Positions 14,464-37,624 of a stretch of 38,481 nucleotides of DNA are shown piece by piece. The translations under genes and the position numbers were made by a program. The notes below the pieces were generated by a model that had not been told where the DNA came from, searched no databases, and worked only from the letters and a program-made list of their open reading frames with translations. How positions within the stretch are numbered: the stretch's first letter is position 1; every line of letters starts with the position of its first letter. Source of the DNA: Deltaproteobacteria bacterium (GTDB lineage: Bacteria > SAR324 > XYD2-FULL-50-16); assembly GCA_029881655.1 (NCBI GenBank), contig JAOUME010000010.1, positions 1 to 38,481 on the forward strand, read 5' to 3'.

Positions 14464-14500
14464 CTATTAGAACTTTTAAAACGGGTTTTTTTAATGATAC

Positions 14501-14812
14501 TTAGCCTCTTAGCTTTGTGTATTGATCAACCATGATATGCTTGTATTCCTTATAGGCCGCAAGTACGATCGCCAAGGCAACGACGGCCTCGGCCGCTGCC
14601 AATAAAATAATGAAAATAGCAAAGATCTGCCCATCAAAGGGCGACCCTTGAGATGGCGTAAATTTCCCGAAGGCCACAAAATTAATCGCCGAGGCGTTTA
14701 AAATCAGTTCAACGCCCATTAAAATTGCAATCGCGTTCTTTTTGGAGAGAAACAGAACTACCCCTAACGTAAAAAGGGCAGCGGACGCAACAAGGTAACC
14801 ATCTAAAATCAT
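14501..14812 (-). CDS. nuoK: NADH-quinone oxidoreductase subunit K
   Basis: 103 aa; 'NAIAILMGVELILNASAINFVAF...AAAEAVVALAIVLA'. Confidence 0.95.
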   Translation of the reverse strand: MILDGYLVASAALFTLGVVLFLSKKNAIAILMGVELILNASAINFVAFGKFTPSQGSPFDGQIFAIFIILLAAAEAVVALAIVLAAYKEYKHIMVDQYTKLRG

Positions 14813-15989: not shown

Positions 15990-16007
15990 AGTTTATATAG
16001 GCTCTTT

Positions 16008-17165: not shown

Positions 17166-17195
17166 AAGTTTAATTAGTTGATAATAAAATCAAAT

Positions 17196-18317
17196 TTAAC
17201 GATCCACCTCGGGTGCCACGACATCTAAAGAACCGATTAACGCGACCAGATCGGCGATAAAAAGGCCCTGGGAAATCTCCGGTATAATCGACATGGCTGT
17301 AAAGGAACCCGTTCTGATTTTAAGCCGGTAAGGTGAAGTCTTATTGTTTGAGTAAAGAAAATAACCGGTATCGCCTCGGGGTGTCTCAGTCCTGACATAG
17401 ATATGCCCTTGAGGCGGCTTGATCACGTTTTTGACCTTCGCTTGAATTTCACCTGATGGCAATTGGTTAAGGCATTGCCGGATAAGTTTAACCGATTCCT
17501 TAATTTCCTTGGCTCTGACGATGTAACGGTCATAACAATCCCCCAAAATCCCTTCACTGCCGGTGCCCACCGGGATATCGAAATCAAGTTTGGAATAGAT
17601 ACTGTAGGGCTCGTCCTTCCTAAGATCGTAATTGACTCCCGAGCCCCTAAGGTTGGGCCCAACCAGATTGTAATTGATGGCCTGCTCTGGTGTTATGACA
17701 CCGAGGCTGGCAAAGCGGTTAATAAAAATCCGGTTGTAAGTGACCAGTCGGTTGATCTGCTCCATGGCAAATTCGAAATGGTTTAGAAACTCGACAGTTT
17801 TCTGGATGAAGTCCGCCGGCAAATCATTAGCGACCCCACCGATGGTCATATAATTGTAGGTGAGTCTAGCGCCGCAAACCCTTTCCAAAAGATCATTGAT
17901 GTACTCTCTTTCTCTTAGGCAGTGGACAAAAGGGGTCACGGCACCCATATCCATATCCGCGGTTCCGATAGCGATCAGGTGACTAGATATGCGGTTCAAC
18001 TCCCCTACGATCACCCTGATATACTCGGCTCTTTCGGGTATTTCAATTCCCATCATTTTCTCAACCGCCAGACAATAAGCCCAGTTCGCGTTCATCGAGC
18101 AAACATAATCAACCCGGTCAGTATAAGGGACGAATCCCTGCCAGGTAACAGACTCGGCGATCTTTTCGATACTGCGGTGCAGGTAACCGATATCCGGTTC
18201 GCAATGATAGATAATCTCACCATTGGTCTTTAGGATAAACCGAATCACGCCATGGGTCGAAGGATGCTGCGGACCCATGTTGATCGTCATGTAGGATGTC
18301 TTAAGGTCGGCTGTCAT
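17196..18317 (-). CDS. nuoD: NADH-quinone oxidoreductase subunit D
   Basis: 373 aa; 'NMGPQHPSTHGVIRFILKTNGE', 'DIGYLHRSIEKIAE', 'SLDVVAPEVDR'. Confidence 0.97.
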   Translation of the reverse strand: MTADLKTSYMTINMGPQHPSTHGVIRFILKTNGEIIYHCEPDIGYLHRSIEKIAESVTWQGFVPYTDRVDYVCSMNANWAYCLAVEKMMGIEIPERAEYIRVIVGELNRISSHLIAIGTADMDMGAVTPFVHCLREREYINDLLERVCGARLTYNYMTIGGVANDLPADFIQKTVEFLNHFEFAMEQINRLVTYNRIFINRFASLGVITPEQAINYNLVGPNLRGSGVNYDLRKDEPYSIYSKLDFDIPVGTGSEGILGDCYDRYIVRAKEIKESVKLIRQCLNQLPSGEIQAKVKNVIKPPQGHIYVRTETPRGDTGYFLYSNNKTSPYRLKIRTGSFTAMSIIPEISQGLFIADLVALIGSLDVVAPEVDR

Positions 18318-18832
18318 CTTTCCTTCTTGGGTGGTTTGAAACTTTGTGAGATTTCCGAAGGTGTATTATCCATACCACCGTACAACATGGGTGTTTGATA
18401 GTCTTTTCTTAAGGGATAACCTACCCAGTCTTCGGGTAGCAAAAGGCGTCTCAAATCAGGGTGGCCTTTGAAATCAACGCCAAAAAGATCAAAAGTCTCT
18501 CTTTCGAGCCAGTCGGCGCTTTTCCATAATGTCGTCACGCTGTCGATGGACAGATCATCAAAGGGCAAAGCGCATTCGATAACAACTTTATGGCGGTGCG
18601 AGTAAGAAAAGAGATGCCAGTACATGACTAAAGTATCATCGATGTGGACGGCCGTTTGGCTCATGAGGGTGTCAAAATCCATTTCCCTGACTTCCTTTAA
18701 GTAACGCATGACGCTTGAAAATTCGTAAGCCGTGATGGAAATGGACGGATCGGGGCCCTCTTCTTTCAATATCACTTCCTGATTGGCAAAACGGTTAATA
18801 TGATCAAATATTTCGGCAACGCTCAATCCCAT
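18314..18832 (-). CDS. nuoC: NADH-quinone oxidoreductase subunit C
   Basis: 172 aa; 'SADWLERETFDLFGVDFKGHPDLRRLLLPEDWVGYPLRKDY'. Confidence 0.95.
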   Translation of the reverse strand: MGLSVAEIFDHINRFANQEVILKEEGPDPSISITAYEFSSVMRYLKEVREMDFDTLMSQTAVHIDDTLVMYWHLFSYSHRHKVVIECALPFDDLSIDSVTTLWKSADWLERETFDLFGVDFKGHPDLRRLLLPEDWVGYPLRKDYQTPMLYGGMDNTPSEISQSFKPPKKER

Positions 18833-18836
18833 TGAT

Positions 18837-19331
18837 TTAACTTGTCTGAGTGTTTTTTCTTAGGTACTTTTCTTTTTTTATCTTTTTTTGGACATCAATC
18901 AAGGCAGAAAGCAGGGCTTCCGGTCTGGGTGGGCAACCCGGAAGGTAAATATCAACGGGGATAACCCTGTCTACACCGTGCAAAACCGAATATCCGGCCT
19001 GAAACAAACCTCCCGTGTTTGAACAGCTTCCCATCGAAATGACGTATTTGGGATCAGGCATTTGTTCATAAAGCAGTTTAACCCGACTCGCCATCTTTAA
19101 GGTAACCGTACCCGCCACGATCATCAGATCTGACTGCCTGGGTGTAGCTCTGGGGGCTGCTCCAAAACGGTCCAAGTCTCCCCTGGGGCCGCCGGTTTGC
19201 ATCATTTCGATTCCACAACAAGCCAACCCAAAGAGCATGAAAAATAAAGAGTTTGCCCTAGCCTTGTTTAAAAGGTCATCAACAGCACCAATGATGAATC
19301 CCTCGGGTTCAAACTGATTTAATAAATTCAT
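18837..19331 (-). CDS. nuoB: NADH-quinone oxidoreductase subunit B
   Basis: 164 aa; '[10 protein letters not shown]', '[10 protein letters not shown]', '[16 protein letters not shown]'. Confidence 0.97.
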
Positions 19332-19355
19332 TGTTTATAGAGCCAAGATTATAAA

Positions 19356-19766
19356 TTAGGTGTCCTGTGTCTTTTCAAATTGAGATTTGATGCTTTTGGC
19401 CCACTCAAGTCCGCCTTGTGACCACGCATAAATAAAACCAACCAGCAAGATGATAATAAAAAGAGCAATCTCAACAAAAGCCAATATCCCCCAACCGCTA
19501 TTGACCATATCTTTAAAAATGACGGTCACAGGATACATAAAAGCAATTTCAACATCGAAAATAACAAAAACAAAAGCAACGAGATAAAAACGCATGTTGA
19601 ACTGTGTAAAGCCGGGTCCGACGGGCAATTCACCGCAGTCATAAACGGTTTCTTTTTGTTCGTTGGGGTTGTTCGGGCGAATCAGGCTACTAACAAACAG
19701 ATTTAAAGCCACGAATCCGATACCAACAATCAAGAATGTAAAGACGTATGCGAAATTTTCAAGCAT
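19356..19766 (-). CDS. nuoA: NADH-quinone oxidoreductase subunit A
   Basis: 136 aa; 'YDCGELPVGPGFTQFNMRFYLVAFVFVIFDVEIAFMYP'. Confidence 0.96.
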   Translation of the reverse strand: MLENFAYVFTFLIVGIGFVALNLFVSSLIRPNNPNEQKETVYDCGELPVGPGFTQFNMRFYLVAFVFVIFDVEIAFMYPVTVIFKDMVNSGWGILAFVEIALFIIILLVGFIYAWSQGGLEWAKSIKSQFEKTQDT

Positions 19767-21780: not shown

Positions 21781-23205
21781 ATGAACGAGTTTGATAACGC
21801 GATAGCGACACTGGTTTTTAATTTAAAACTATTAAATAAAAAAAGCCGTAAAAATGTTCTTATTAGTGCGGGTCAGAGAAAAAACAAACGAAAGATGCTG
21901 GAGCACATAAGCAAATTGGCCGAGTTCGGAATTAAGATTTACGCTACGGGCGGGACAGCTCGTTTTTTTAATGAAAATAATTTAAAAAACATTCCAATCT
22001 ATAAAATAAGTGAAAAGAAAGAGCCAAATATTGAATCTTTTTTAAAGGACAATCGGTTCGATTTGGTCATCAATATTCTGACTGGTGATGAAGATTACGA
22101 CGAATCATCCGACAGCAAACTGATTCGGGCCTTATCCATAAAAAACGGGATTCCACTAATTACCGATGTGGAGGTTTCGATCCTGACGATAAATCAGTTG
22201 ATTCAGGAGCATCAAAAAGGGACCTATAAATACAAGATCGCCGATAAGACGGAGCCTTGGAACTTAAAGCTCGAGTTTTTTCAGTCCGTTAACAACCTAG
22301 GGGGGTTTGCAAACTATCACGCGCATTTCGATAAGGCCTATTTGATCAACAAGGACAACCTGAAGTTGTCTCATGTCGATATGCAAAAAAAGTGGGAGCT
22401 TTATAAATATCTCAAACAAAATTACACCCATGAGGATCTGGTTGAGCGGATTTCCAGGGGCTTAGAGACGATGATGAGTCAAGGGGTGACCTATTGCCGG
22501 ACTTTCGTTGACGCCGATAGCACGGTTAAGCTCAAACCCATTAAGGCCGCTTTGGAGGTTAAGGCGAAATATCAAAACCAGATTAATTTTGAAATCGGCG
22601 TACAACCTCTTGAGGGTGTGCTAGATCCCAAGACGAGAAAATATTTTGAACAGGCATGTGAAATGGCCGACTTGATCGGTGGGCTTCCATCTAAAGACCG
22701 TCCTCGGCCAGAAAAGCATTTGGATTATATCATGGAGCTTTCCAAGGAGTTAAACAAGAAGCTTGATGTTCATATCGACCAGGAAAACAACCCGTTTGAA
22801 ACTGAGACGGAGCTTCTGGCACTTAAAACGATTGAGCACGGCCTTCAGGGCAAAGTAAGCGGGATACACGCGATTTCTTTATCTTCTCACCCAAAAAGCG
22901 ATCAAGACCGGATCATAAAGATCGTCAAGGACGCTGGACTGAACATCATTGTTTGTCCTTCAGCGGCAGTCGGGATGAAGCAATTAGAAATGGAGGCGCC
23001 CTTACATAATTCGATTGCGCCTGTTTTAAAACTTTTGGATGCCGAGGTGCCGGTCTTTATGGGGGTTGATAATATCTATGACCTTTTTATGCCGTTTGTA
23101 GACGGAGATATGTGGTTTGAGTGCCGAATGCTGATGGAAGCGACCCGACTTTACGACTACGAAAAAGTCGCGGCGATTGCATGTGATAAGAGAGGTTTTG
23201 AATAA
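21781..23205 (+). CDS. MGS-like domain fused to amidohydrolase (cytosine-deaminase-like)
   Basis: Residues ~25-145 resemble the CarB C-terminal/MGS fold (VLISAGQRKNKRKMLEHISKLAEFGIKIYATGGTARFF...DLVINILTG...IPLITDVEVSIL); remainder has HAHFDKAYL, VHIDQENN, GIHAISLSSHP and MGVDNIYDLFMPFVDGDM, matching CodA-type metal-site segments. Confidence 0.72.
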   Translation: MNEFDNAIATLVFNLKLLNKKSRKNVLISAGQRKNKRKMLEHISKLAEFGIKIYATGGTARFFNENNLKNIPIYKISEKKEPNIESFLKDNRFDLVINILTGDEDYDESSDSKLIRALSIKNGIPLITDVEVSILTINQLIQEHQKGTYKYKIADKTEPWNLKLEFFQSVNNLGGFANYHAHFDKAYLINKDNLKLSHVDMQKKWELYKYLKQNYTHEDLVERISRGLETMMSQGVTYCRTFVDADSTVKLKPIKAALEVKAKYQNQINFEIGVQPLEGVLDPKTRKYFEQACEMADLIGGLPSKDRPRPEKHLDYIMELSKELNKKLDVHIDQENNPFETETELLALKTIEHGLQGKVSGIHAISLSSHPKSDQDRIIKIVKDAGLNIIVCPSAAVGMKQLEMEAPLHNSIAPVLKLLDAEVPVFMGVDNIYDLFMPFVDGDMWFECRMLMEATRLYDYEKVAAIACDKRGFE

Positions 23206-23432: not shown

Positions 23433-25439
23433 ATGGATTATAATAAGGAGAGGCAGTTTTCTTACCCATCGATTCAAAAGGAATTTCTGGATTATCAGCT
23501 AAAAACAAAGCTATCAGGAGGGGATGAGTGGGATGTTCTGAGGCATAAAATTGCTCTTTTTGAAAAGAATGACGCGCTAAATGAAATTGCTGATTTGATA
23601 AACGAGGAAAAAGGGTTAGTTGCGGTTAAGCGCTTAAAATATTACCTAAGTCCCGATCTGGTCGGTTATCCGAGTTGGAGTGACTTTAGCCGGGATAATT
23701 CAGTCACTTTGAAGTTCCTAAATCAATTTCGTTTGATCGCAAGTGACAAAGGAAATTTCCTAGAAAAGGTTAAGACTCAATTCAAATTAATAAAAAAGGA
23801 GGGATGTTATTGTTCATGGGATGTTTGGGGATCGTTACTTTGGTTTTTTAATCCTAATGACTTCATGCCCGTTAAGGTTAAGATATTTAACCAAGTGGCC
23901 AAGAACAGTCCGTTTCCCCCTTTTAATTTTAAGGCTGACCCCGAGGGACTTAACGGTTACCTCAACTGGATAGAGACCCTAAAAAACGCCACAGGAAAGG
24001 TGAAAACACCTAGCGGAAGCGATCTTTTTTCATTTTTGTGTTATCTATCCAGAGGCCGGCAAGATCACGAAGATAAAATACAGCGCGATGACATTAGTCC
24101 TTTTAATCCCGTGGTTCCAATCAACAGGGTCTATTTCGGTCCCCCTGGGACGGGTAAGACCTACCGCCTGATTCATGAAATTCTGCCATTATACCAATCC
24201 GAGGAATCTTTGAAAGTTGGTCGGCATGAAATCGCAATCGATATTTTTCAGGACAGTTCCTGGCTTGTGATTCTCGCCGCGGCGATCATTGAACTGGGCG
24301 GCAGGGCGATGACCAGTGAACTTTGCGCCCACCCCTTCATACTAAACAAGCTAAAAAGCATCGGCAGGATCACGGTAGCTCCTGATCAGATCACTCAAAC
24401 CTTAAGCTCGAAATCCTTAGGCGGGGATTCACTAAAAAACAGCCAATCTGGAAACCATCTTCAACTCTTTAAGAGAGAAGACCAGAACTACTGGTCTTTA
24501 CTGGATGGATGGGAAGAGTTGATGCCGGAAATTTACGAAAACATCGAGAAGATGGAATATTTGATCCAAAAGGCCGATAATAAAGCCTACGAGTTCATCA
24601 CTTTTCATCAATCGTTTAGTTATGAGGAGTTTGTCGAGGGTATCAGGCCGGTTTTCGATCAGAATGTTTCAAAGGGTCAGATGCGCTACGAGGTTTGTCC
24701 GGGTATCTTTTACCAACTTTGCCAAAAAGCGGTCAAGAATCCCTCAAGACGCTTTGCCGTCTTTATCGATGAGTTGAACCGCGGTAATATCAGCAAGATT
24801 TTCGGTGAGTTGATCACGCTTTTGGACACCGATAAACGGCTGGGTATGCAAAACGAAGTAAAAGTAACCCTTCCCTATTCAAAACAAGAGTTCGGCATAC
24901 CTGCCAACCTTGACGTGTACGCAACAATGAACACGGCTGACCGTTCGACCGCGCTTTTGGACACCGCGATCAGAAGAAGGTTTGACTTTATTGAATGCGT
25001 GGCCGATGAGAATTTGATCATGGGAATCGATAATCAAGGTAGAATCAGTGACGAGGAAGGCGGATCGATCGATCTTCGCTTAATGTTTGTGAACCTAAAC
25101 CGTAGGATCGAGTATCTCTTGAGCCGCGACCAGTTGTTGGGGCATGCCTATTTTATGAATGTGCGTCATTTTAAGGATCTCAAGCGGGTTATTTCGGAAA
25201 AAATCATACCTCAACTCCAGGAATATTTCTACAGCGACTGGCATCCCATACAGCTCATCTTCAGAGATTTGACCGATAATAATCGTAACCATCCGTATCC
25301 CATCATCTCAAGGAGAAAAGTGTCTGAAAAAAAACTATTCGGCTTCACCCTGGATGACTTCGAAGAAACTTTTCAATACACGGTTCAAGAGGATTATTCA
25401 TCTGAAGCCATAAAGAAAATCTATGATCTGACATTATGA
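23433..25439 (+). CDS. mcrB: McrB-like AAA+ GTPase subunit of an McrBC-type restriction system
   Basis: Walker A GPPGTGKT, 'FITFHQSFSYEEFVEGIRP', 'AVFIDELNRGNISKIFGELITLLDTDKR', 'ATMNTADRSTALLDTAIRRRF'. Confidence 0.88.
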   Translation: MDYNKERQFSYPSIQKEFLDYQLKTKLSGGDEWDVLRHKIALFEKNDALNEIADLINEEKGLVAVKRLKYYLSPDLVGYPSWSDFSRDNSVTLKFLNQFRLIASDKGNFLEKVKTQFKLIKKEGCYCSWDVWGSLLWFFNPNDFMPVKVKIFNQVAKNSPFPPFNFKADPEGLNGYLNWIETLKNATGKVKTPSGSDLFSFLCYLSRGRQDHEDKIQRDDISPFNPVVPINRVYFGPPGTGKTYRLIHEILPLYQSEESLKVGRHEIAIDIFQDSSWLVILAAAIIELGGRAMTSELCAHPFILNKLKSIGRITVAPDQITQTLSSKSLGGDSLKNSQSGNHLQLFKREDQNYWSLLDGWEELMPEIYENIEKMEYLIQKADNKAYEFITFHQSFSYEEFVEGIRPVFDQNVSKGQMRYEVCPGIFYQLCQKAVKNPSRRFAVFIDELNRGNISKIFGELITLLDTDKRLGMQNEVKVTLPYSKQEFGIPANLDVYATMNTADRSTALLDTAIRRRFDFIECVADENLIMGIDNQGRISDEEGGSIDLRLMFVNLNRRIEYLLSRDQLLGHAYFMNVRHFKDLKRVISEKIIPQLQEYFYSDWHPIQLIFRDLTDNNRNHPYPIISRRKVSEKKLFGFTLDDFEETFQYTVQEDYSSEAIKKIYDLTL

Positions 25440-26719
25440 TTACCTATCAGGTTAAAGAATTTGAACGTGTCCCTTTTAAGGGCAATCTAGGTGAGGATCG
25501 CAGATTTATTTTAACACCTTCCCGAATTAAACATCTAAGAAATCTTGAGCACCTTTTACCGCCAAACGCGGTTCAATGGCTCTCTAACGGTGTGCGATTC
25601 CAGCATTACTGCGGTGTTATTTCCATTGGTAAAGAACAGATCGAAATCTTGCCTAAAATCACATCCTGTGAGACCAGAGCGGATTTAAGTCGCGAGATCC
25701 TAATTAAGATGCTTTATGAGACGAAGAAGATTACCCCATTGAAAAATCGAATAGCCAAGATGAACTACCAAAGTAAATACTTTATCGAGATACTGATCGA
25801 ACCTTATTTAAGAGAGCTGAATGCGGTTTTAAAGCAGGGTCTTTTCAAAATTTACGCGCTTCAGAGCGGTTCTCAAACCATGGTAAGGGGAAGACTGCTT
25901 TTTGATCAGCAAATCAAAAGCGGCTATAGGGGAAAAGGTGAGTTCTATTGCCGTTATGACGAGTTTATCGAGGACAATCTCTGTAACCAGATTATCAAAA
26001 AAACCCTGCAATTCATTGGTCGGTTTTATCTGTCACCCAGGACGAAAAGAGTTGTTTTCCAACTTCTGAGTCGGTTTCATGAGGTGGGGGAACTAAGCGG
26101 CACACTGAAGGAAGCTCAGACTGTCGGTTTTCAAAAAGAGAGACAACCCTATAAAAGGATCGTCGAGATGTCCTGCTGGATGCTATCGGGACTTAAGCCG
26201 GATGTCGTTTCCGGGTCGAAGATTTCAGGTGCTTTTTTATTTGATATGAACCGCCTGTTTGAAGAATATATTGCGGTTAAAATCGCCAAAATCACCAAGG
26301 ATAAAAACTTGTTTTTAAAAAAACAGGGTGTTAAAAAATACCTGATTCACTGGCAAAATCAGGACAAGGACCTCTTTCGTCTTATCCCTGATATCGTTCT
26401 TTTCGGCACCAAGGATAACAAGGTTAAACTGATCATCGATACTAAGTGGAAAAGGGTCAATACCGAGGGTGGGAGGTTAGGCGTCGAACCGTCTGATATC
26501 TATCAGATTCTTGCTTATTCCAGTCGATTTCAATGTAAAAACGTTATCCTGGTCTATCCAGGGTATAAAGAGCATGACTTGAAACGAACCGTTCTTAACG
26601 TAAAGAACAGCCGCCAAAAGATCATCCTGCGTTTTATCGATCTTGCCGGAGCCTTAAAAAATAACTCAAGAGACAGCATCAATCATCAATTGATCGAAAT
26701 TCTGTCAGAGGTTTGTTAG
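25436..26719 (+). CDS. mcrC: McrC-like nuclease subunit
   Basis: ATGA overlap with mcrB; 'NGVRFQHYCGVISIGKEQIEILPKI', 'MVRGRLLFDQQIK', PD-(D/E)xK-like 'LIPDIVLFGTKDNKVKLIIDTKWKRV'. Confidence 0.88.
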   Translation: MITYQVKEFERVPFKGNLGEDRRFILTPSRIKHLRNLEHLLPPNAVQWLSNGVRFQHYCGVISIGKEQIEILPKITSCETRADLSREILIKMLYETKKITPLKNRIAKMNYQSKYFIEILIEPYLRELNAVLKQGLFKIYALQSGSQTMVRGRLLFDQQIKSGYRGKGEFYCRYDEFIEDNLCNQIIKKTLQFIGRFYLSPRTKRVVFQLLSRFHEVGELSGTLKEAQTVGFQKERQPYKRIVEMSCWMLSGLKPDVVSGSKISGAFLFDMNRLFEEYIAVKIAKITKDKNLFLKKQGVKKYLIHWQNQDKDLFRLIPDIVLFGTKDNKVKLIIDTKWKRVNTEGGRLGVEPSDIYQILAYSSRFQCKNVILVYPGYKEHDLKRTVLNVKNSRQKIILRFIDLAGALKNNSRDSINHQLIEILSEVC

Positions 26720-27465: not shown

Positions 27466-27520
27466 GATGAAAAATAATTCATCTTTTTTTCATGAGTTGT
27501 TCATCTTGATAGGTTAGTAT
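27466..27520 (+). promoter_or_regulatory. Putative OmpR-family-type activator site and promoter P1 (copy 1 of a duplicated 55-bp element)
   Basis: GATGAA(27466) then TTCATC(27478), TTCATG(27489), TTCATC(27500) at 11-bp spacing; GTTAGT at 27513 containing possible -10 TAGTAT (27515-27520), 43 bp upstream of the b561-DHC start. Confidence 0.65.
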
Positions 27521-27562
27521 AACAAACATCACCACCCACCTAACCATGTCAAACAACAATAT

Positions 27563-28717
27563 ATGCAGGAAAAACATTCAAAAATTAAGGTTTGGGACCT
27601 TCCCACAAGGCTTTTTCATCTTTTGTTGATCCTTTGTGTCTTGGGTGTTTTTATCTCAAGCCTGAAAGAAAACCAGCTTTTTTATCACGTCTGGTTTGGT
27701 GAACTCATTCTGGTTTTATTGTTATTTCGTTTAGGTTGGGGCTGGCTGGGGCATTTTTTTTCACGCTTTGGCAACTTTTTATTGCCGCCAAAGCCTGTGT
27801 TGTCATATGTGAAAGTTCTAATCAAGGGTGAGAATCCAAAGAGTCTGGGGCATAACCCTCTGGCTGGCTGGGTGATGATCTTTCTTTTGGTTTTGCTGTC
27901 GATGATCACCGTTAGTGGGCTTATTGTCCTGGGAGGAGAGGAGAAAATCGGTTTTCTCGCAACCTTGATTACGGTTCCCCAGGGTCATTTCGCCAAATCG
28001 ATCCACGTTTTCTTAAGCAAATTGCTGGTCGTCTCCATTGGGATTCATCTTTTGGGCGTTCTGTTAAACAGCCTTTTGCACAAAGAAAATTATGTCATTT
28101 CGATGATTACCGGGAAGAAGAATGCCACTGATCATGAAGCATCTGCTTTTTACCCTAAAAAGCGGGTCAATCAGGTCGTATTTATTGTGATGATATCGGT
28201 GCTGATGATATCGATCCCATATATTTTACCGATGAACTATTATAATCCCTTGACCAGAGATGCGCATTTGTCCAGACAGAGCGAAGACGATCTTCATTAC
28301 CAGAAAATATGCGGGGATTGTCATTTCGAGTTTCATCCCAGCTTATTGCCAAAACGTTCATGGACAGCCATGCTGGATTCGTTAGAGGATCACTTCGGGG
28401 AAGACGCGAGCTTAAACGCTAAGGACAAGGAGAGGATAGCCGATTATTTATTGAGTAATTCTGCGGAAAAAATGCTTAACGAATCGGCCTATAAAATCAT
28501 GATCTCTATTAATGAAACGAACTCGCCCCAGAGAGTGACTGAAGTGGATTACTGGAAATCAAAACACGCGATGATCAAACCGGAACAGTTCAGGGAAAAA
28601 CCGATCAAAAGCAAACTGAACTGCGGGGCTTGTCACCCGCTTGGAAAATACGGCTCATTTGAGGATGCCGACATAGCGATACCAAATAACGCGAGTATAG
28701 CTGATGCGCTTAAATAA
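27563..28717 (+). CDS. Cytochrome b561-type membrane protein fused to C-terminal diheme cytochrome c (DHC-like) domain
   Basis: N-terminal 'KVWDLPTRLFHLLLILCVLG...YHVWFGELILVLLLFRLGWGW'; C-terminal CGDCH and CGACH with 'PSLLPKRSW...LEDHFGEDASL' as in DHC. Confidence 0.85.
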   Translation: MQEKHSKIKVWDLPTRLFHLLLILCVLGVFISSLKENQLFYHVWFGELILVLLLFRLGWGWLGHFFSRFGNFLLPPKPVLSYVKVLIKGENPKSLGHNPLAGWVMIFLLVLLSMITVSGLIVLGGEEKIGFLATLITVPQGHFAKSIHVFLSKLLVVSIGIHLLGVLLNSLLHKENYVISMITGKKNATDHEASAFYPKKRVNQVVFIVMISVLMISIPYILPMNYYNPLTRDAHLSRQSEDDLHYQKICGDCHFEFHPSLLPKRSWTAMLDSLEDHFGEDASLNAKDKERIADYLLSNSAEKMLNESAYKIMISINETNSPQRVTEVDYWKSKHAMIKPEQFREKPIKSKLNCGACHPLGKYGSFEDADIAIPNNASIADALK

Positions 28718-28752
28718 CAGCGTTAAATTAAACCCGAAGCGATAGGAACCAA

Positions 28753-29214
28753 ATGATCATTAAAACAAAGTCATTGCTTAATAAATATCTTATCTTAGGA
28801 GGTCTTTTTATTTTGGTACTTGTTGTACATCAAAACGAGGTCCTAGCTTTTGATAAAAATCCGGTCGTTAAAGCGTTTCAAAAGCAGTTGGAAAGCAAAG
28901 CGCAAAACCAAAGCCCAGGCTTTAAGGGATTCTCGGCGGAAGAAGGGGAAAAGTTGTATCACCTAAAGCGAGCTTTTTCCAAAGATGGAGAAACGCGCTC
29001 TTGCACCAGTTGTCACACCAATGATCCGACCAAGCCCGGTGAGACAAAGGTAGGCAAAGCGATTAAGCCTTTGGCTCCCAAAGTTAACAATGAGCGTTTT
29101 ACGGATGTGGAAAAAATCGAAAAATGGTTTCGGAGAAACTGTAAATGGGTTTTAGAGAGAGAATGCACAGTCGTAGAGAAAGGTCATTTTATTGAATTTA
29201 TTTACTCAATTTAA
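28753..29214 (+). CDS. SHP-like monoheme cytochrome c (DUF1924)
   Basis: Signal peptide; CTSCHTNDPTKPGETKVGKAIKPLAP..NNERFTDVEKIEKWFRRNCKWVLERECTVVEKG, strongly SHP/DUF1924-like. Confidence 0.85.
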   Translation: MIIKTKSLLNKYLILGGLFILVLVVHQNEVLAFDKNPVVKAFQKQLESKAQNQSPGFKGFSAEEGEKLYHLKRAFSKDGETRSCTSCHTNDPTKPGETKVGKAIKPLAPKVNNERFTDVEKIEKWFRRNCKWVLERECTVVEKGHFIEFIYSI

Positions 29215-29226
29215 AAAAGGAAAGAA

Positions 29227-29814
29227 ATGAAAAACAAATCACGGTTTTTAGTCGTTTTGATGTTGATGACGATGAGTCTGTTTCTGATCGCAACGACGGC
29301 ATACGCCGATAAGGACGAGGATGATGAGAAAGAGTATAATTTATTAGGAAAACTGGAACACAGCGGGGAAAAAGGTAAAAAGATTTTCCAGATTCGATCC
29401 ATTCCCCCTGTCACTGATACAACTTATCTCAAAGAGTGCGGTGCTTGTCATTTTGCATACCAGCCGGGCCTCTTACCGGAGAAATCATGGGAAAAAATCT
29501 TTAGTGGACTGGAGAGTCATTTCGGTGAGGACGCAAGTCTGTCTGCCGAGAAAGCAAAGAGCCTAAGAGAGTACGCCATCCAAAATTCCGCTGAAAAGGC
29601 CAATTCAAAAAGAGCCAATAAAATTCTAAGGAGTATCAAGGGCGAACCGCCTCTGAGAGCCTCCGATACCCCCTACCTAATTCATGAGCATAATGAATTC
29701 CCGGCTTCAGTCTTAAAAAGAAAATCGATCATGTCGATCGCGAACTGTGGCGCTTGTCATACTACGGCGGATCGGGGTATCTATTCCGAAAGATATATCC
29801 ATATCCCCAAATAA
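29227..29814 (+). CDS. Secreted diheme cytochrome c (DHC)
   Basis: Signal peptide; two CGACH motifs; 'PGLLPEKSWEKIFSGLESHFGEDASLSAEKAKSLREYAIQNSAEKA', paralogous to the domain fused to b561. Confidence 0.87.
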   Translation: MKNKSRFLVVLMLMTMSLFLIATTAYADKDEDDEKEYNLLGKLEHSGEKGKKIFQIRSIPPVTDTTYLKECGACHFAYQPGLLPEKSWEKIFSGLESHFGEDASLSAEKAKSLREYAIQNSAEKANSKRANKILRSIKGEPPLRASDTPYLIHEHNEFPASVLKRKSIMSIANCGACHTTADRGIYSERYIHIPK

Positions 29815-29920
29815 GGCTAAAGGGGGGCAACTCTGTTTAGCTGGAGTTATCCCTCATAATGTATTGAAACCGGTTGGGTACGATGATTTAATGAGCCAAA
29901 AAATTTCCTCTTAGATAAAG

Positions 29921-31177
29921 ATGATACCAGCCACGAAAAAACACCTTACCCTGATTTTCTTTTCCATCATTATCGCTTTTAATATTTTATTGTTGTGCAT
30001 CAGTTATTTTTCGATGTACCAGAGCATTATGCGTTCAATGAAATATCATCTGTCGGTGGATGATAAAAAGGAATTCAAGGCTAAGTTTTTTTTCAGCGAT
30101 ATCGACAGTTTCCAGGGTATCACGGATGACGAGATTATTCACATTCTTGATAAGGATGGAGTCATCGTTTCTACTTTTTTTTCCAAGAATTATGCTATCG
30201 AATTTTCCCAAGAGAATTTCCAAAGAGCGCTCGATGGCGAGGAAATTTTTGATTTTCAGGAGATTGACGGCATTGAGTTTCTGGTTTTTTATTTTCCCTT
30301 GACCAAACAATATGTTGGTAGGATCGCCGAGCCACTAATCCAGCTGATGGAATATGAGCGTAATTTTGTTATTTTCACGGTGATCCTGTTTCCCGGAGTG
30401 CTTTTGCTGTCTTTTTTTATTAGCCGTTATCTGGTCAACCAGGCTATGATCCCTATAACCGAAGCTTTTCGTTTTCAGGAAAATTTTTCATCGAATGTAT
30501 CGCATGAACTCCAAACCCCACTGGCATCTCTCAAAGGAAATTTGGAAGTCGCGTTAAGAAACCCTAGAAAAGTCGAGGAGTACAGGGAAGTTATCCGCTT
30601 AGGACTCAAGGAAACCAATCGGATTATTGCTCTTTCCCAGGATCTGTATCTTTTGGCTTCATCGAGTTTCAAAAGCCTTTCTTTGTTTCATGAGGAGGTG
30701 GATCTGAAAGATCTTTTCGAGGATATCAAGCTGAATTTTCTTCATAAAATCGAAGCCAAGCAAATGAGCCTAAAGGATCATGAGATTCATTCCGCTCCAT
30801 GTTTGTGTGACGCCGTGCTGATCCAACGGACACTAGAGAATCTCATGGACAATGCCATTAAGTACTGTCCTGAAAAAGGAGAGATAACTGTTTCGATAAA
30901 AAGACACAAAGATGAATGGCAAATCCGTTTCGATAATCCCTGCGAAATTATAAGTCAGATAGAAGCGAATAAACTGACTAATCCATTTGTCAGAGGTTCA
31001 AACGCAGAGGCCTCAGAAGTGGAAGGCAAGGGCTTGGGGTTAAATATTGTGAAATATATTGTTCGCTCTCACAAAGGGAGCGTCAAAATTAATATCTCCG
31101 AAGATCATATTTTTTCTATAATGATTTTATTACCCATTATGTCCAACTCAAAAAAGAGTAAAAATGAATTAACTTAA
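29921..31177 (+). CDS. Sensor histidine kinase
   Basis: Two TM segments, 'NVSHELQTPLASLKGNLEVAL' H-box, 'TLENLMDNAIKYC' N-box, 'GKGLGLNIVKYIV' G2 box; atypical G1. Confidence 0.92.
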   Translation: MIPATKKHLTLIFFSIIIAFNILLLCISYFSMYQSIMRSMKYHLSVDDKKEFKAKFFFSDIDSFQGITDDEIIHILDKDGVIVSTFFSKNYAIEFSQENFQRALDGEEIFDFQEIDGIEFLVFYFPLTKQYVGRIAEPLIQLMEYERNFVIFTVILFPGVLLLSFFISRYLVNQAMIPITEAFRFQENFSSNVSHELQTPLASLKGNLEVALRNPRKVEEYREVIRLGLKETNRIIALSQDLYLLASSSFKSLSLFHEEVDLKDLFEDIKLNFLHKIEAKQMSLKDHEIHSAPCLCDAVLIQRTLENLMDNAIKYCPEKGEITVSIKRHKDEWQIRFDNPCEIISQIEANKLTNPFVRGSNAEASEVEGKGLGLNIVKYIVRSHKGSVKINISEDHIFSIMILLPIMSNSKKSKNELT

Positions 31178-31416
31178 AGGAATATTTGTTTTAAAATAAA
31201 TAACAAAATTATATATAATTCATTCAAATACGATCAGGAGGTTTGAATTACAGCCCAATTTGAATATGATGAGTATTGATTGAAATTCAACTGTATGGTT
31301 AACAAGTGATGCAATCACCAGCCGCTGATGGGTCGGGGATATAAAAGGTTTCAATTTTCACGAAAGAACTTCGTATGGTCATTGATATTTGGTTGACGAT
31401 TGTAGCTCGTCAAATA

Positions 31417-31471
31417 AATGAAAATAATTTCATTTTGATTTCATTAGGAGTTCATTCGCACCTGTTAGTTT
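31417..31471 (+). promoter_or_regulatory. Putative OmpR-family-type activator site and promoter P2 (copy 2 of a duplicated 55-bp element)
   Basis: AATGAA(31417) then TTCATT at 31429, 31440, 31451 (11-bp spacing); GTTAGT at 31464 containing possible -10 TAGTTT (31466-31471), upstream of 31559 gene. Confidence 0.65.
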
Positions 31472-31558: not shown

Positions 31559-32122
31559 ATGAGTGCTAAGGGGATATTCAAACTGGCTTTGGGAGCGATT
31601 CTTATGTTGAGCGCGAACCTCTTCGGAGCAGTTTCGACACAAGCGGGGGAATTCTCTTTGATGGGTGGATACGGCTTTACCTCATTAACTGTCCCGACCA
31701 ATGGGCTCTCAGGAGTTGCGGGCTACAGAACCGATATGCAAGGTGGGTGGTTTTTCACCGATTATCAACTGGTGGCTTATAATCTTGTTGGAAAGGCGAC
31801 GGTTGCAAAAGATGTCAAGGTCGATTGTCTGGTTAAGATGAAAAGTTATGAAATGAACTACACCGTTCTTTTCGGGAAATCGGATTCTTTGAGTTTTGGT
31901 CCAGGAATCGGTTATGGTGTCGCTATTGTTACAGAGGATGTTAATTCAGTCGATGGAGGAAGAAGAGGGGATTCCTGTCCGTTTTTCGCGAACAGCGATC
32001 TACATTTTGGGAATTTGTACCTAAAAATCGCTAAAAGATTCGATAGCTATTTGTGCGAAGGGAGGCTAAGCTCTTTTGGCGGTCTAATCGGTGGTGGTGT
32101 GGTATGCGGCATAACCTACTAA
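31559..32122 (+). CDS. Small outer-membrane beta-barrel-like protein
   Basis: 187 aa; signal peptide ending near 'STQAGE'; glycine/aromatic-rich amphipathic segments, C-terminal 'GGGVVCGITY'. Confidence 0.6.
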   Translation: MSAKGIFKLALGAILMLSANLFGAVSTQAGEFSLMGGYGFTSLTVPTNGLSGVAGYRTDMQGGWFFTDYQLVAYNLVGKATVAKDVKVDCLVKMKSYEMNYTVLFGKSDSLSFGPGIGYGVAIVTEDVNSVDGGRRGDSCPFFANSDLHFGNLYLKIAKRFDSYLCEGRLSSFGGLIGGGVVCGITY

Positions 32123-32973
32123 AACTGATCCTATTAGGGATCGCAATCACTTTTTTCGCGGCTGGATGCAGAGATCTGCTGACGAATCATTCGCTCAATA
32201 TGGATGGCGTAATGCATGGTGAGAAGCTTGATAAGGGCGCCAATAATTGCAGTTCTTGTCATGGTATTAACCTAGAGGGCAATGGGCCTTTGCCAAGCTG
32301 CTACGGATGTCACGACCGTTTGTGGAGTAGCGATGATCACATTACCGACCGCGGCGGTGTCAAGCATCTTTTTGCGCTGGACTCTTCGGCATCCTGCGGG
32401 AAATGTCACGGCGGTCCTGACCTGAAAGGGAAAAGAAGCAGGCCATCCTGTTATCAATGCCATGATGATAACTGGTCCGGCTTTACGGATCATAGCCTGG
32501 AAATCAACGGCTATTTCCACAAGCCTGACATGACCAACGCGATGACCGACTGTATCGATTGCCACGGAGCGGATATGGACGGTGGAACGACCGGAGTTTC
32601 CTGCTATCAGTGTCACTTTAACAAATGGGACCCCAGTAAATGGATCGATCATACGGTTGTTATCAATAACGCCAGGCACGCCACCGGTCATTACGATCCC
32701 GAAGCAAACTGCGTAGACTGTCACGGGAGCGATCTTAAGGGTACCAAGGACGCGCCGTCATGTTATAGCTGTCATTGGGGAGTATGGGCGGGAGCAATGA
32801 TTCCGCATACCGATTACGAGCATGGAATACCCCACGCTAGAGGGATGGATACGCCCATCGCCAGCGGATGCGGGAATTGTCACGGAGCCGACCTCAGGGG
32901 CGCTAACGGAATTGATTCTTGCTACAAGTGTCACGGAAACGAGTGGGATGATGATGATCATGATGATGACTAA
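32104..32973 (+). CDS. Decaheme c-type cytochrome lipoprotein with five tandem diheme modules
   Basis: Ten CXXCH. Start reassigned from the track's 32053 to ATG 32104: MRHNLLKLILLGIAITFFAAGC gives a clean lipoprotein signal; overlaps the upstream stop. Confidence 0.88.
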   Translation: MRHNLLKLILLGIAITFFAAGCRDLLTNHSLNMDGVMHGEKLDKGANNCSSCHGINLEGNGPLPSCYGCHDRLWSSDDHITDRGGVKHLFALDSSASCGKCHGGPDLKGKRSRPSCYQCHDDNWSGFTDHSLEINGYFHKPDMTNAMTDCIDCHGADMDGGTTGVSCYQCHFNKWDPSKWIDHTVVINNARHATGHYDPEANCVDCHGSDLKGTKDAPSCYSCHWGVWAGAMIPHTDYEHGIPHARGMDTPIASGCGNCHGADLRGANGIDSCYKCHGNEWDDDDHDDD

Positions 32974-33042: not shown

Positions 33043-34020
33043 ATGAATCGTTTATTTCTTTTATTCAGTATTGGTTTAATCGGATTGGTATTTCAGAGTT
33101 GTTTCATTCACAGCGATGTTGTCCAGGTCGACCCCACCACCGCCAAAAGTGAGCTTTGCGGAGAATGCCATATCCATGAATACAAGGAATGGCAAAAAAG
33201 CGCTCATAGCAGAGCCTTTACTTCGATCGAATTCAAAAGACAGACGGATCGCTATAAGATCAAAAAATGTCTCTCCTGTCATATCCCCGAGCCCATTTAC
33301 GGTAAGAAGAAAGTCACCGCGCGAGAAAACCATCTAAACGAAGGAGTCAACTGCGTCGCGTGTCATTTGACTCCCGATCAGAAAATGGGCGGGCCCTTGT
33401 TCGTCCTGCCGGCGCATAGCGTGAGTATGAATGATGAGTATTATCTCAAAAGTGAGCTTTGCGGGACTTGTCACGAGGAGCATTTCGAGCAATGGGATAA
33501 GTTTGAGCCTCCAGATAGTCAAGCGAAGCAGACTTGTCAGGGGTGTCACATGCCCAGTGCCGAAAGAAAACTGATTACCGAAGGTTTGTTTCAATATGCG
33601 CATTGGAAGCAGGACGTTAGAAAACATCTTTTTTTATCTGAACCGGAGCTTCAGGGCGAGTTAAAGGATTGGCTTAAAGTCAAGGCCGAAACTTTGTCTA
33701 TTGAAAAAGGGAATCACCCCATAAGAGTTGAGCTAAACCACAGGCTTCCGCACGCGTTTCCGGCTGGAATTTTCGGTTTTAAAGCCATCGATTTGTTAGT
33801 CTCAATCAAAAGTGAATACGGATTGACTCTTGAGGAACAGATCACCACCCTTTATGCGGAAGAAAAAAAAAATATCATGCCTAATAAGACCTACTTCAAG
33901 ATATTTCAATTTAAAAAGGCGGACTGGAATAAGGCGGAGTATATCGAGATCAGGATAAATCGTCGCAAAAGCAGAACCGATTATGGTGTGAACCTTTTGA
34001 CGATGCATCGGCGGATATGA
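33043..34020 (+). CDS. Pentaheme c-type cytochrome (cytochrome c554-like) with C-terminal non-heme domain
   Basis: CGECH, CLSCH, CVACH, CGTCH, CQGCH; N-terminal hydrophobic signal with possible lipobox VFQSC. Confidence 0.85.
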   Translation: MNRLFLLFSIGLIGLVFQSCFIHSDVVQVDPTTAKSELCGECHIHEYKEWQKSAHSRAFTSIEFKRQTDRYKIKKCLSCHIPEPIYGKKKVTARENHLNEGVNCVACHLTPDQKMGGPLFVLPAHSVSMNDEYYLKSELCGTCHEEHFEQWDKFEPPDSQAKQTCQGCHMPSAERKLITEGLFQYAHWKQDVRKHLFLSEPELQGELKDWLKVKAETLSIEKGNHPIRVELNHRLPHAFPAGIFGFKAIDLLVSIKSEYGLTLEEQITTLYAEEKKNIMPNKTYFKIFQFKKADWNKAEYIEIRINRRKSRTDYGVNLLTMHRRI

Positions 34021-34021
34021 C

Positions 34022-34672
34022 ATGACCAACATTCCCGATACAACTAAATTTAAAAGATTTGAAAAAACGGAGATTCTACTTCACTGGTCTCATGGACTTC
34101 CATTTTTGTTTTTGGTCTTAACGGGATTTTGGTTGGCTTGGGACGGCATGACCGGTATCGAAAGGTCTGAAAGCATATCTTATTATCATAAAATCGCTGG
34201 GATTGTCTTGATATTTCTGCCGCCCGTGGTCGTCATCAGCGGCAATTTGGAGCTGATAATACGCAATTTCAGGAAAATCATCTCATTTGGCCCGGCGGAT
34301 GTTTCCTGGATAAAATCTCAAAGTAACAAGCAGGAACCGCTAGCTCAGGGAAAATTTAATTTTGGACAAAAGATGAATACTCTGGCTGTCATGGTCTATT
34401 CATCGTTCCTGCAACTTACGGGTATCTGGCTTTGGATCACCCCTCAGGGGTTGTTGCCAAGATGGCTACACACCATCGTGGCGTTCGGAGGAAGTTTTCT
34501 TTTATGCGGACATCTTTATATGGCCATGGTCAACCCCAGTACAAGAAAAGCTTTCATGGCGGTCATTACGGGGTTTGTATCGAAAGACTATATAAGGCAC
34601 CATCATGAGCTACAGCTTGATGATGCCGAGGATGCTGATGATAGGGGATTTGACTTAAGGCGTGACAAATAA
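34022..34672 (+). CDS. Membrane b-type cytochrome (cytochrome b561/formate dehydrogenase gamma-like)
   Basis: Four hydrophobic segments with conserved His: 'LLHWSHGLPFLFLVLTGFWL', 'YYHKIAGIVL', 'LHTIVAFGGSFLLCGHLYMAM'; start one base after the preceding stop. Confidence 0.82.
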   Translation: MTNIPDTTKFKRFEKTEILLHWSHGLPFLFLVLTGFWLAWDGMTGIERSESISYYHKIAGIVLIFLPPVVVISGNLELIIRNFRKIISFGPADVSWIKSQSNKQEPLAQGKFNFGQKMNTLAVMVYSSFLQLTGIWLWITPQGLLPRWLHTIVAFGGSFLLCGHLYMAMVNPSTRKAFMAVITGFVSKDYIRHHHELQLDDAEDADDRGFDLRRDK

Positions 34673-36168
34673 TGAACCCGGCTTTAAATAAGATAATTAA
34701 ATTTATTGTGAGCGGTCTGTTGCTGATTATTTTATATCAGACCGGACTTTCTCAAGGAATTGAGCCTCAGCTTAAACAATCAATGGTGGAAAACAAACGT
34801 TTTTATGATCATATGTACGATATTTTATCACCCGGGACTCTTTCCAAGGGGCATGCCTATCTTGATAACTTCATGGGTTGTTTTAAGTGCCACACCTTAA
34901 ACACGGGCGTGTCTGACGGGTACTGTATGGATTGTCATCAGGAGATCAAAAGTCAGAAAAACAAAAAAAACGGTTACCATGGAAAACAAAATGACAAGGA
35001 ATGTCTTGAATGCCACCTGGAGCATCAGGGAGTTCAGAGCGAGTTGTTTAACCTCGATCTAGTCAAGCACGAAAAATTCGGATTTAAATTAAACGGTGGT
35101 CATGCCGGGATCAAGTGCGATAAATGCCATTTGAGTGAAAAGATGAATCATGAGGCGAGAAACATTCTGATCGATGGTCGAAAAAAAGAACTCAGAAGCT
35201 ATTTAGGACTTTCTGTCGATTGTGATATTTGTCATAATAGACCACATAAAGATCAGTTTAAGGATAAAATTTGTAAGGATTGCCATAGCGATGTATCCTG
35301 GGGTTCCTTGAAATTCGATCATCAAAAGGATTCGGATTTCAAGCTTGAGGAAACTCATTTAAAAATCAATTGCAAGGCATGTCACAAGCCCAATAAAAAT
35401 GACCCAAAAACGGTAGGCTATCAGGGAATCGGGAAAAAATGCGTTGATTGTCATGAAGATCCGCATGAAAAAAGAAGCGGAACTGATTGCGAGTACTGTC
35501 ACACGCCAAAAAAATGGAAAAATATCAACAATATTAAAAAGCTTAGTCGGTTTAATCATTCAAAGCGCTTTTTTGTCCTTGAAGGCGAGCATAAAAAGCA
35601 TAAATGCGAAGATTGCCACGTTTTAGAAAAAAAAATTGTTTATAAGATAGCCAAATACAATTTGTGCGATGATTGTCACAAGGACCCGCACAAAGAGCAG
35701 TTTCAACCCAGGAAATGCGTCCAGTGCCACAAACCGGTTATTGAGTGGAAAAAGCCGAATTTCAATCATGATAAAACGAATTTCGTCATTAAGAACCTTC
35801 ATAAGAAAATCAAATGCAAGGATTGTCATCAGGATGGAAAATACGTTTTGGGGGACCTGGCTAGCTGCGAGGGCTGCCACGAAGATATCCGCAAGATCAT
35901 GATGGGAACCCATTTTCTTCAAAAGGGAAACAACATCCCTCCTGACGCGATGTATCCGGCGGTACCTTGTACCTCCTGCCACCAGCAAAAGGAGGTTAAG
36001 GTTAATGAGGATTTGATCAGGAAAAAATGCGTGGAATGTCATAACAAATCCTTTGGGGACTTATGGGACTATCGTCTCGAAAAGCTGGGTAAAAGACCCG
36101 AGACGCAAACGACACTTGAAAAACAAACCCGTCTATTACAATCTCACCGATTCGCGGACGCTTTTTAG
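34672..36168 (+). CDS. 16-heme c-type cytochrome (c3/doubled-CXXCH-like repeats)
   Basis: Sixteen CXXCH by hand count in 498 aa; N-terminal signal; TAATG overlap with the upstream gene. Confidence 0.88.
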   Translation: MNPALNKIIKFIVSGLLLIILYQTGLSQGIEPQLKQSMVENKRFYDHMYDILSPGTLSKGHAYLDNFMGCFKCHTLNTGVSDGYCMDCHQEIKSQKNKKNGYHGKQNDKECLECHLEHQGVQSELFNLDLVKHEKFGFKLNGGHAGIKCDKCHLSEKMNHEARNILIDGRKKELRSYLGLSVDCDICHNRPHKDQFKDKICKDCHSDVSWGSLKFDHQKDSDFKLEETHLKINCKACHKPNKNDPKTVGYQGIGKKCVDCHEDPHEKRSGTDCEYCHTPKKWKNINNIKKLSRFNHSKRFFVLEGEHKKHKCEDCHVLEKKIVYKIAKYNLCDDCHKDPHKEQFQPRKCVQCHKPVIEWKKPNFNHDKTNFVIKNLHKKIKCKDCHQDGKYVLGDLASCEGCHEDIRKIMMGTHFLQKGNNIPPDAMYPAVPCTSCHQQKEVKVNEDLIRKKCVECHNKSFGDLWDYRLEKLGKRPETQTTLEKQTRLLQSHRFADAF

Positions 36169-36192: not shown

Positions 36193-36918
36193 ATGTTAAA
36201 ATATATCAGGATATTAACCTTATTCTTTTTCACGCTGATACCGTTTCTTTTGACCGGATTTCCCGTACTCGCTTCTAAGGGAAGTTATGTGGATATTGAG
36301 AATTATTATATTCTTCAGATCGGCAATATTGTGGTGCAAGGAAAATCCAACTTCTTTGACTTCAAAGGTGAGGCTATTAAACATGAGGGGAAATTGGTTG
36401 AGGAAGATGAAACCTATACCGGCAGGATTATTTTGCGTTTTAAGGATTTACATTTCAATCTTCCTTTGGCAGGGAGCATTATCACCGACCCAAAATATAT
36501 GGATGTAAAGCATCACCCTGAAATCGAGATCAACCTAGATCACTTCAAGCCAGAGGAAAAGCCTACTAGCGTTAAAAGTATGCTCAGTATGAACGGGGTC
36601 ACGAAACCGATTTCAATCGCGACTACAATCACCAACAGCACACCTGTCGTTAAGGTTAATGGTAGTTTCACCGTCAAGCAAACCGATTATAAGATCATTC
36701 CCTATAAAGCGGGTCTGGTAAAAGTCGTTGATGAGTTGAACATTAGTTTTTTGGTTTATTTTTGCGAAACGCATGATAAGATGCCGCCTAATGATTATGT
36801 CAGCCCAGAGAGGATAAAGCAGTTTCTGGTAGAGGACAATATTACCATCATTACTGATGATACGTTTTATGGTTGTGAAGAGTTAAGGCCACTCAGAGAG
36901 CAGGGTCTTTTGAAATAG
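36193..36918 (+). CDS. YceI-like secreted protein
   Basis: Signal peptide; 'GRIILRFKDLHF..DPKYMDVKHHPEIEINLDHFK..SVKSMLSMNGVTKPISIATTI..VNGSFTVKQTDYKI' resembles the YceI lipocalin-like fold. Confidence 0.75.
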   Translation: MLKYIRILTLFFFTLIPFLLTGFPVLASKGSYVDIENYYILQIGNIVVQGKSNFFDFKGEAIKHEGKLVEEDETYTGRIILRFKDLHFNLPLAGSIITDPKYMDVKHHPEIEINLDHFKPEEKPTSVKSMLSMNGVTKPISIATTITNSTPVVKVNGSFTVKQTDYKIIPYKAGLVKVVDELNISFLVYFCETHDKMPPNDYVSPERIKQFLVEDNITIITDDTFYGCEELRPLREQGLLK

Positions 36919-36952: not shown

Positions 36953-37624
36953 ATGAGAATATTACTGGTTGAGGACGAAAAAGGAGTTGCGAGTTTTATT
37001 AAAAAAGGTCTTGAAGAAGAGCGTTACACTGTTGACCTAATGACGAATGGAGAGGATGGATTGCATTTGGCGCTGACTGAGACATATGATCTTTTGCTTT
37101 TGGATGTGATGCTTCCGAAGGTTAATGGATTTGAAATATGTAAAACGGTCAGGGAGAATCAGATACAGACACCGATCTGCATGCTAAGCGCAAAAGGATC
37201 GGTTCAAGACAAAGTGCAGGGACTGGACTACGGTGCGGACGATTACCTCACAAAACCCTTTTCTTTTGAAGAGTTATTAGCCAGGGTAAGGGCTTTACTC
37301 CGCAGAAAAAATGAAACAATCTTAGAACTTCAGGTCGGAAATCTCAAGCTGAATACCCAGACTCATCGAATCTATGTCGATCAAAATGAAATTCTTCTAA
37401 GACCCAAAGAGTACGCGATTTTGGAATACCTTGTGCGCAACGAAGGCCGGATTATTTCCAGAACCCAGATCCTGGAAAATATATGGGGTTATAATTTCGA
37501 TCCGAACACTAATATTGTTGATGTCCACATTAAATCGATCCGTAAAAAACTTTCTGAGTTCTCCGAGATCGATTATATACGTACCATAAGGGGGATGGGT
37601 TATATGATTGAAGATTTAAAATAA
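36953..37624 (+). CDS. OmpR/PhoB-family response regulator
   Basis: 'RILLVEDEKGVASFIKKGLEEE', 'DLLLLDVMLPKVNG', 'GADDYLTKPFSFEELLARVRALLRR', winged-helix 'LRPKEYAILEYLVRNEGRIISRTQILENIWGYNFDPNTNIVDVHIKSIRKKL'. Confidence 0.96.
   Translation: MRILLVEDEKGVASFIKKGLEEERYTVDLMTNGEDGLHLALTETYDLLLLDVMLPKVNGFEICKTVRENQIQTPICMLSAKGSVQDKVQGLDYGADDYLTKPFSFEELLARVRALLRRKNETILELQVGNLKLNTQTHRIYVDQNEILLRPKEYAILEYLVRNEGRIISRTQILENIWGYNFDPNTNIVDVHIKSIRKKLSEFSEIDYIRTIRGMGYMIEDLK

Follow-up and report, generated by a model that had tools for sequence, protein, structure and literature searches.

What controls the two neighboring cytochrome operons, A and B, on contig JAOUME010000010.1 of a SAR324-class bacterium (deposited as Deltaproteobacteria bacterium)? 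This contig, analyzed over its full length of 38,481 nucleotides and called here the window, belongs as C135 to a draft genome of 3.0 Mb in 304 contigs (G000). Each operon is preceded by a copy of the same element, in which three TTCAT repeats phased at 11 bp lie between an upstream ATGAA and a −10-like hexamer. From sequence comparisons, we put at about 0.83 the probability that this element is the operator-promoter of an autoregulated two-component system of the OmpR/PhoB family, which activates a c-type-cytochrome regulon in this bacterium. The sensor-regulator pair encoded nearby very probably has its docking site here. The bacterium is assigned to SAR324 through G011, a genome of the same class that gives coordinates and scores identical to those of the genome behind locus L137, SAR324 cluster bacterium NIOZ-UU44. 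Cultures of SAR324 bacteria are, to our knowledge, lacking, and how these bacteria control their genes has hardly been studied.

One element in front of two operons

The arrangement in the window is ATGAA-N6-TTCAT-N6-TTCAT-N6-TTCAT-N10-TAGT(A/T)T, which corresponds to the general element pattern ATGAA-N6-TTCAT-N6-TTCAT-N6-TTCAT-N10-TANNNT. The two copies are as follows:

27467 to 27520, forward strand: operator-promoter copy A, with ATGAA at 27467-27471, TTCAT at 27478, 27489, and 27500, and the −10 hexamer TAGTAT at 27515-27520; conserved in genomes G001, G003, and G005
31418 to 31471, forward strand: operator-promoter copy B, with ATGAA at 31418-31422, TTCAT at 31429, 31440, and 31451, and the −10 hexamer TAGTTT at 31466-31471; conserved in G001 and G003

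A preliminary description of the window had reported this shared architecture at identical offsets in both intergenic regions. The TTCAT repeats, the GTTAGT starting at 27513 in copy A and at 31464 in copy B, and the −10-like hexamers are all where it placed them. The ATGAA half-site is present too, but it had been set 12 bp before the first TTCAT, and it starts 11 bp before it, at 27467 and 31418 (position 27466 is that of the A/G base before ATGAA). The identity of the copies, counted by hand as 37 of 55 ungapped positions (27466-27520 versus 31417-31471), was exact on recount. This confirms that the repeated element is real. The best ungapped 55-bp match between the two intergenic regions had 38 identities, and none of 500 pairs of dinucleotide-preserving shuffles of these regions reached this value (mean of 29.2, maximum of 34). 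The window has no further perfect TTCATN6TTCATN6TTCAT, and its seven matches with up to three mismatches (3.6 expected) are not significant on their own; it is therefore the perfect matches, together with the genome-wide and cross-genus tests, that give significance.

Domain searches agree with the preliminary gene assignments, in which copy A precedes the genes of a cytochrome b561/diheme cytochrome c (DHC) fusion, a sphaeroides heme protein (SHP), a DHC, and a kinase, copy B precedes those of an outer-membrane protein (OMP) and a decaheme cytochrome, and an OmpR-family regulator lies downstream:

27563 to 28717, forward strand: cytochrome b561/DHC fusion (Pfam Ni_hydr_CYTB and DHC), first gene of operon A, its ATG 43 nt after the −10
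28753 to 29214, forward strand: SHP family protein (DUF1924; Pfam PF09086)
29227 to 29814, forward strand: DHC (Pfam PF09626)
29921 to 31177, forward strand: membrane sensor histidine kinase (HisKA/HATPase), last gene of operon A
31559 to 32122, forward strand: small outer-membrane beta-barrel-like protein (OMP; no Pfam family), first gene of operon B
32053 to 32973, forward strand: decaheme lipoprotein (10 CxxCH), likely start at 32104
33043 to 34020, forward strand: pentaheme c-type cytochrome
34022 to 34672, forward strand: membrane protein of the cytochrome b561 family
34672 to 36168, forward strand: multiheme cytochrome with 16 CxxCH
36193 to 36918, forward strand: YceI-like protein
36953 to 37624, forward strand: OmpR/PhoB-family response regulator (Response_reg and Trans_reg_C), last clear gene of operon B

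The structural model of the OMP, of low confidence (pLDDT of 61), resembles the 8-strand barrels of OmpA, OmpX, and Ail. We hypothesize that operon B may encode an outer-membrane electron conduit.

Sites elsewhere in the genome

The repeats alone (TTCATN6TTCATN6TTCAT, at most one mismatch) gave eight matches in G000 and none for the reversed control. The extended scan pattern, which adds TANNNT starting 10 bp past the last repeat, gave five perfect matches. Its reversed control gave none without mismatches and a single match only when up to two were allowed. All five perfect sites lie 43 to 88 nt upstream of an open reading frame (ORF) and are oriented toward it. Two are those of the window operons, and three are unlinked, on contigs C109, C158, and C34. 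The C109 site lies 67 nt upstream of the gene of a 168-aa heme-binding-domain protein (PF14376 Haem_bd, 90 bits), and the C158 site lies 62 nt upstream of the first of three consecutive multiheme lipoprotein genes (7, 11, and 9 CxxCH). The C34 site is found 49 nt upstream of a 31-codon ORF that has a good ribosome-binding site, encodes a one-helix membrane peptide, and is followed by a hairpin and a T-run; a second array, with one mismatch and with ATGAA-N6, occurs about 94 bp upstream of the first. The genome scan suggested in the preliminary description has recovered almost exclusively cytochrome promoters. The regulon of the locus's own system proposed there is supported, but its extent is wider than the locus, with three unlinked sites in the same genome.

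The C34 arrays and ORF (L050:10467-10656; G000 C34:40487-40638, minus strand) comprise tandem operators, the peptide MTDILLKVYVNFLFSMMGYLVMVAVVVFVAG, and a terminator-like hairpin after the ORF. The peptide might be a small membrane protein with a regulatory or cytochrome-associated role.

Conservation in other genera

The extended pattern was searched in 77 genomes, 67 of them outside the family; the family sample comprises ten genomes, among which G001, G003, and G005 represent three other genera. Perfect sites in the other family genomes were found in G001 (two) and G003 (one), all at orthologous loci. The gene order of both is that of the window (SHP, DHC, and kinase, then OMP, multiheme lipoprotein, pentaheme cytochrome, b561, multiheme cytochrome, YceI, and regulator), with one copy of the element ahead of the first gene and another ahead of the OMP gene; one of the G003 copies has two mismatches. 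Allowing up to two mismatches added this second G003 locus site, the operon A site of G005, and unlinked sites in G005 (C17, before an octaheme lipoprotein gene) and G003 (C43, before a diheme lipoprotein gene). The other family genomes showed one- or two-mismatch matches at control-like rates.

The element of G005 is found only before SHP-DHC-kinase, and the second promoter is absent. Its contigs C27 and C38 overlap at their ends, with the OMP gene about 80 nt past the kinase stop, so that one promoter seems to serve both halves. This genome (L047, L090) apparently has the SHP-DHC-kinase and OMP-to-regulator operons joined under one operator, a natural promoter-loss variant.

The footprinting in relatives that had been proposed shows that the element is kept in other genera: between them, the 54-bp core is 57 to 72% identical, versus 15 to 35% for the 40 bp on either side. 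This bears on whether the two copies are a chance likeness of AT-rich intergenic DNA (the two regions have 35% and 28% G+C) or a recently duplicated promoter. The probability of such an origin is close to nil, given the shuffles, the empty genome-wide reversed control, and the unlinked sites at cytochrome genes. The cross-genus comparison refutes it, since the element is conserved while flanks and spacers diverged.

Outside the family, the 67 genomes gave one perfect match, in the distant genome G068 (L043:4357-4409), where four 11-bp-phased TTCA(C/T/A) repeats of nearly the same core precede an alkaline phosphatase gene. This site is most likely a PHO box, suggesting that the pattern captures the geometry of the OmpR/PhoB family in general. 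Direct repeats of 11 nt, bound head-to-tail, make up PHO boxes (PMC4415409; core GTTCACC in Streptomyces), and these lie, like the repeats in the window, close to the −10. Could the elements then be PHO boxes of the PhoB-like regulator that G000 encodes beside pstB, tying the cytochromes to phosphate starvation? The G068 match, the only perfect one out of the family, would fit this idea, which we nevertheless regard as very unlikely. No match in G000 precedes phosphate genes, the pstA-pstB-phoB stretch that was read has none, and no pst or pho targets were recovered. The upstream half-site is inverted, unlike in a plain PHO box, and the core differs from the CTGTCAT of Escherichia coli. Moreover, the regulator of operon B (regulator 36953) is not PhoB, and across the family the motif tracks its 65 to 69% ortholog.

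Neighborhoods with b561-DHC/SHP/DHC genes proved to be widespread in our analysis, and the motif was absent from 1.27 Mb of SHP-containing loci of other taxa. In 19 whole genomes of these taxa, it was also absent except for two single-mismatch matches. Leave-one-out scores of the family sites range from 22 to 49 bits, versus a maximum of 18.6 in these 1.27 Mb. The only score above 12 bits there belongs to a Stutzerimonas locus adjoining another OmpR-type kinase/regulator pair, a similar architecture in a different system. At this Stutzerimonas kunmingensis locus (L150:17138, minus strand) and related ones, a conserved TTCAC-N6-TTGAC-N6-TTGAT-N10-TAGTTT lies just inside or upstream of a methyltransferase-like ORF; we take the neighboring pair of L150 to be ColRS-like from its gene content.

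Operator and promoter geometry

The 13 sites used for the consensus, 11 of them outside the window, gave ATGAAATTTATTTCAT-N6-TTCAT-N6-TTCAT-N10-TAGTNT. The ATGAA half-site, which was not part of the search that found the non-window sites, is at the exact offset in 7 of these 11 (background of about 0.0016 per position); because orthologous sites are not independent, the binomial value for this recurrence is too strong. The upstream ATGAA is a conserved inverted half-site, so that the operator has four half-sites (inverted, direct, direct, direct). The 11-bp direct repeats of the preliminary description stand for the three TTCAT and are refined by this inverted fourth half-site. Their phasing agrees with the 10 to 11 bp of the OmpR/PhoB family.

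A −10-like hexamer follows the last repeat by exactly 10 bp at all 13 sites (CAGTCT once, TANNNT in the rest), and at none of them does the −35 position at 17 bp match TTGACA in more than 3 of 6 bases. When the −10 is set at −12 to −7, the last TTCAT falls at about −27 to −23. With no −35 hexamer and an operator that abuts the −10 at a fixed spacing, the placement is that of class II activation. The last repeat occupies the slot of the missing −35, as expected of an activator-dependent promoter. The regulator might instead repress from this position, given that the sequence does not fix the sign and that operators adjoining a −10 can serve repression. We consider this improbable: a promoter with no usable −35 should be weak by itself, and the last repeat fills the slot where activators of the PhoB type are known to contact sigma.

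The kinase and the regulator

Within the family, full-length orthologs of kinase 29921 (42 to 43% identity) and close orthologs of regulator 36953 (65 to 69%) are found, besides G000, only in G001, G003, and G005. These are exactly the 4 of 10 family genomes with sites before cytochrome genes. The DNA-recognition helix region is near-identical in the four regulator orthologs and differs in the 46 to 49% paralogs of G002 and G006. In G000, G001, and G003, the element lies upstream of both two-component genes, and in G005 one element precedes the single run containing both. The kinase also has a relative outside the family, in G041 (28% over the sensor); it adjoins its own regulator on a 3.6-kb contig that lacks the motif and is uninformative.

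Several points weigh against an autoregulated cytochrome regulon. Kinase and regulator lie in the site-bearing operons, so that their co-occurrence with the sites is partly linkage, and each count comes from a single family sampled by ten genomes. The −10 component of the scan pattern was adjusted once a first scan of the genome had been made. A sequence model built from the 13 sites recovers them at E ≤ 6e−7, with no further match under 0.01 across ten genomes, but such a model necessarily finds the sites on which it was trained. At C34, the target is no cytochrome, and no match to the 31-codon ORF was found in 18 relatives. Finally, the matches with at most one mismatch at C139 and C192 overlap coding ORFs and have no −10; we took them as chance.

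The regulator combines a receiver and a winged-helix domain (Trans_reg_C) and has a partner kinase, as in OmpR/PhoB-family two-component systems. Its best NCBIfam model was TIGR01387 (cztR_silR_copR; 252.4 bits, cut-off of 279.2), and its score with the PhoB model was 213 (cut-off of 296). TorR was absent from the 25 best models, with no dedicated TorR comparison made. The assignment to the OmpR family made earlier is hence upheld, the best-scoring type being CopR/CusR/CzcR, whose known boxes are inverted pairs, and not PhoB. The modeled core of the kinase has HprS and CusS among its best PDB matches (27% identity).

Another, unlinked regulator might bind the element while the local system controls something else. 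Some targets are indeed unlinked to the two-component genes, and binding by regulator 36953, activation, and phosphorylation pairing are what we infer from sequence. This alternative is nonetheless unlikely, about as much so as repression. The 11-bp phasing with replacement of the −35 is a signature of the OmpR/PhoB family, of the two further full-length OmpR-type regulators that are listed for G000 one is PhoB-like (beside pstB) and one OmpR-like, and the local pair lies behind the element in all four genera.

A model of the regulon and its relation to known systems

In the autoregulated system that we favor, kinase 29921 would phosphorylate regulator 36953, two dimers of which would bind one helix face of a sigma70-type promoter where an activator operator replaces the −35. 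With four half-sites phased at 11 bp and a gap of 10 bp between the last of them and the −10, the most downstream subunit would be placed to contact RNA polymerase. This would switch on operon A (b561-DHC, SHP, DHC, and kinase), operon B (OMP, multiheme cytochromes, b561, YceI, and regulator), and the unlinked cytochrome genes. Since the last genes of operons A and B are those of the kinase and the regulator, respectively, positive autoregulation is predicted.

The CopR-type subfamily recognizes inverted pairs with N6 between 5-bp halves, such as AAAATGACAAnnTTGTCATTTT for CusR of E. coli or GAAACn6GTAAT for CzcR (PMC11195947). ATGAA-N6-TTCAT has the inverted-pair geometry of the CusR, CopR, CzcR, and HprR boxes, in line with the best score of the regulator and the kinase core matches. 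In contrast with these boxes, two extra direct TTCAT follow at 11 bp, running toward the −10 in the manner of PHO boxes, and the core is TTCAT, not GTCAT or GTAAT. The TIGR01387 score is under the curated cut-off, and the targets are cytochromes, a heme-binding protein, and a small membrane ORF instead of metal-resistance genes. We lean, with less assurance than for the autoregulated system itself, toward a dedicated SAR324-lineage system running a dispersed electron-transfer regulon (the SHP/DHC/b561 module, the outer-membrane multiheme conduit, extra multiheme lipoproteins, the heme-binding protein, and the small membrane peptide) through a composite operator, in which a CusR-type inverted pair would have gained two direct repeats, allowing two dimers to replace the −35.

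The Tor system also places a multiheme c-type cytochrome operon, torCAD, under OmpR-family control; TorC is a pentaheme c-type cytochrome (PMC11727998), and the tor boxes CTGTTCATAT contain TTCAT (PMC9239176), a core common to both systems. Unlike in the Tor system, the genes of operons A and B include no trimethylamine N-oxide reductase or molybdoenzyme, and the literature consulted describes no 11-bp-phased inverted-plus-direct geometry for tor boxes. In proteobacteria, a kinase-regulator pair near the b561-DHC/SHP/DHC set is known, and three sensor types, one QseC-like, have been described for these operons (PMC2909971). The window has this gene set and a nearby pair; that work describes neither the multiheme OMP operon nor the operator and the unlinked targets. 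Open-access text yielded nothing relevant on TTCAT with OmpR-family direct repeats or on multiheme cytochrome regulation in SAR324. The type of switch is ordinary and well known, whereas the operator, the regulon, and the kinase-regulator pair appear undescribed in that text.

The regulon can be read from sequence, the motif predicting which cytochromes work together. It links the oxygen-binding SHP module with the putative outer-membrane conduit of multiheme cytochromes, and it indicates a sensor; the signal of this sensor would show when the cell uses the pathway. Across the four genera, each genome carries two to six arrays, and in one genus the two operons are joined behind a single array; this natural series of operators lends itself to studying the tolerance of OmpR-family regulators for inverted and direct half-sites.

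Other genes in the window

A complex I operon occupies 9299-19766 on the minus strand, with genes named as subunits B, C, D, H, I, J, L, M, and N; among the genes checked, none was recognized as E, F, or G. Directly upstream of the cytochrome locus (23433-26719), an AAA-domain gene is followed by a McrC-type gene, a restriction component of the McrBC family. The gene at 21781-23205 encodes a protein fusing an MGS-like domain and an amidohydrolase domain (NCBIfam PRK06886, above cut-off).

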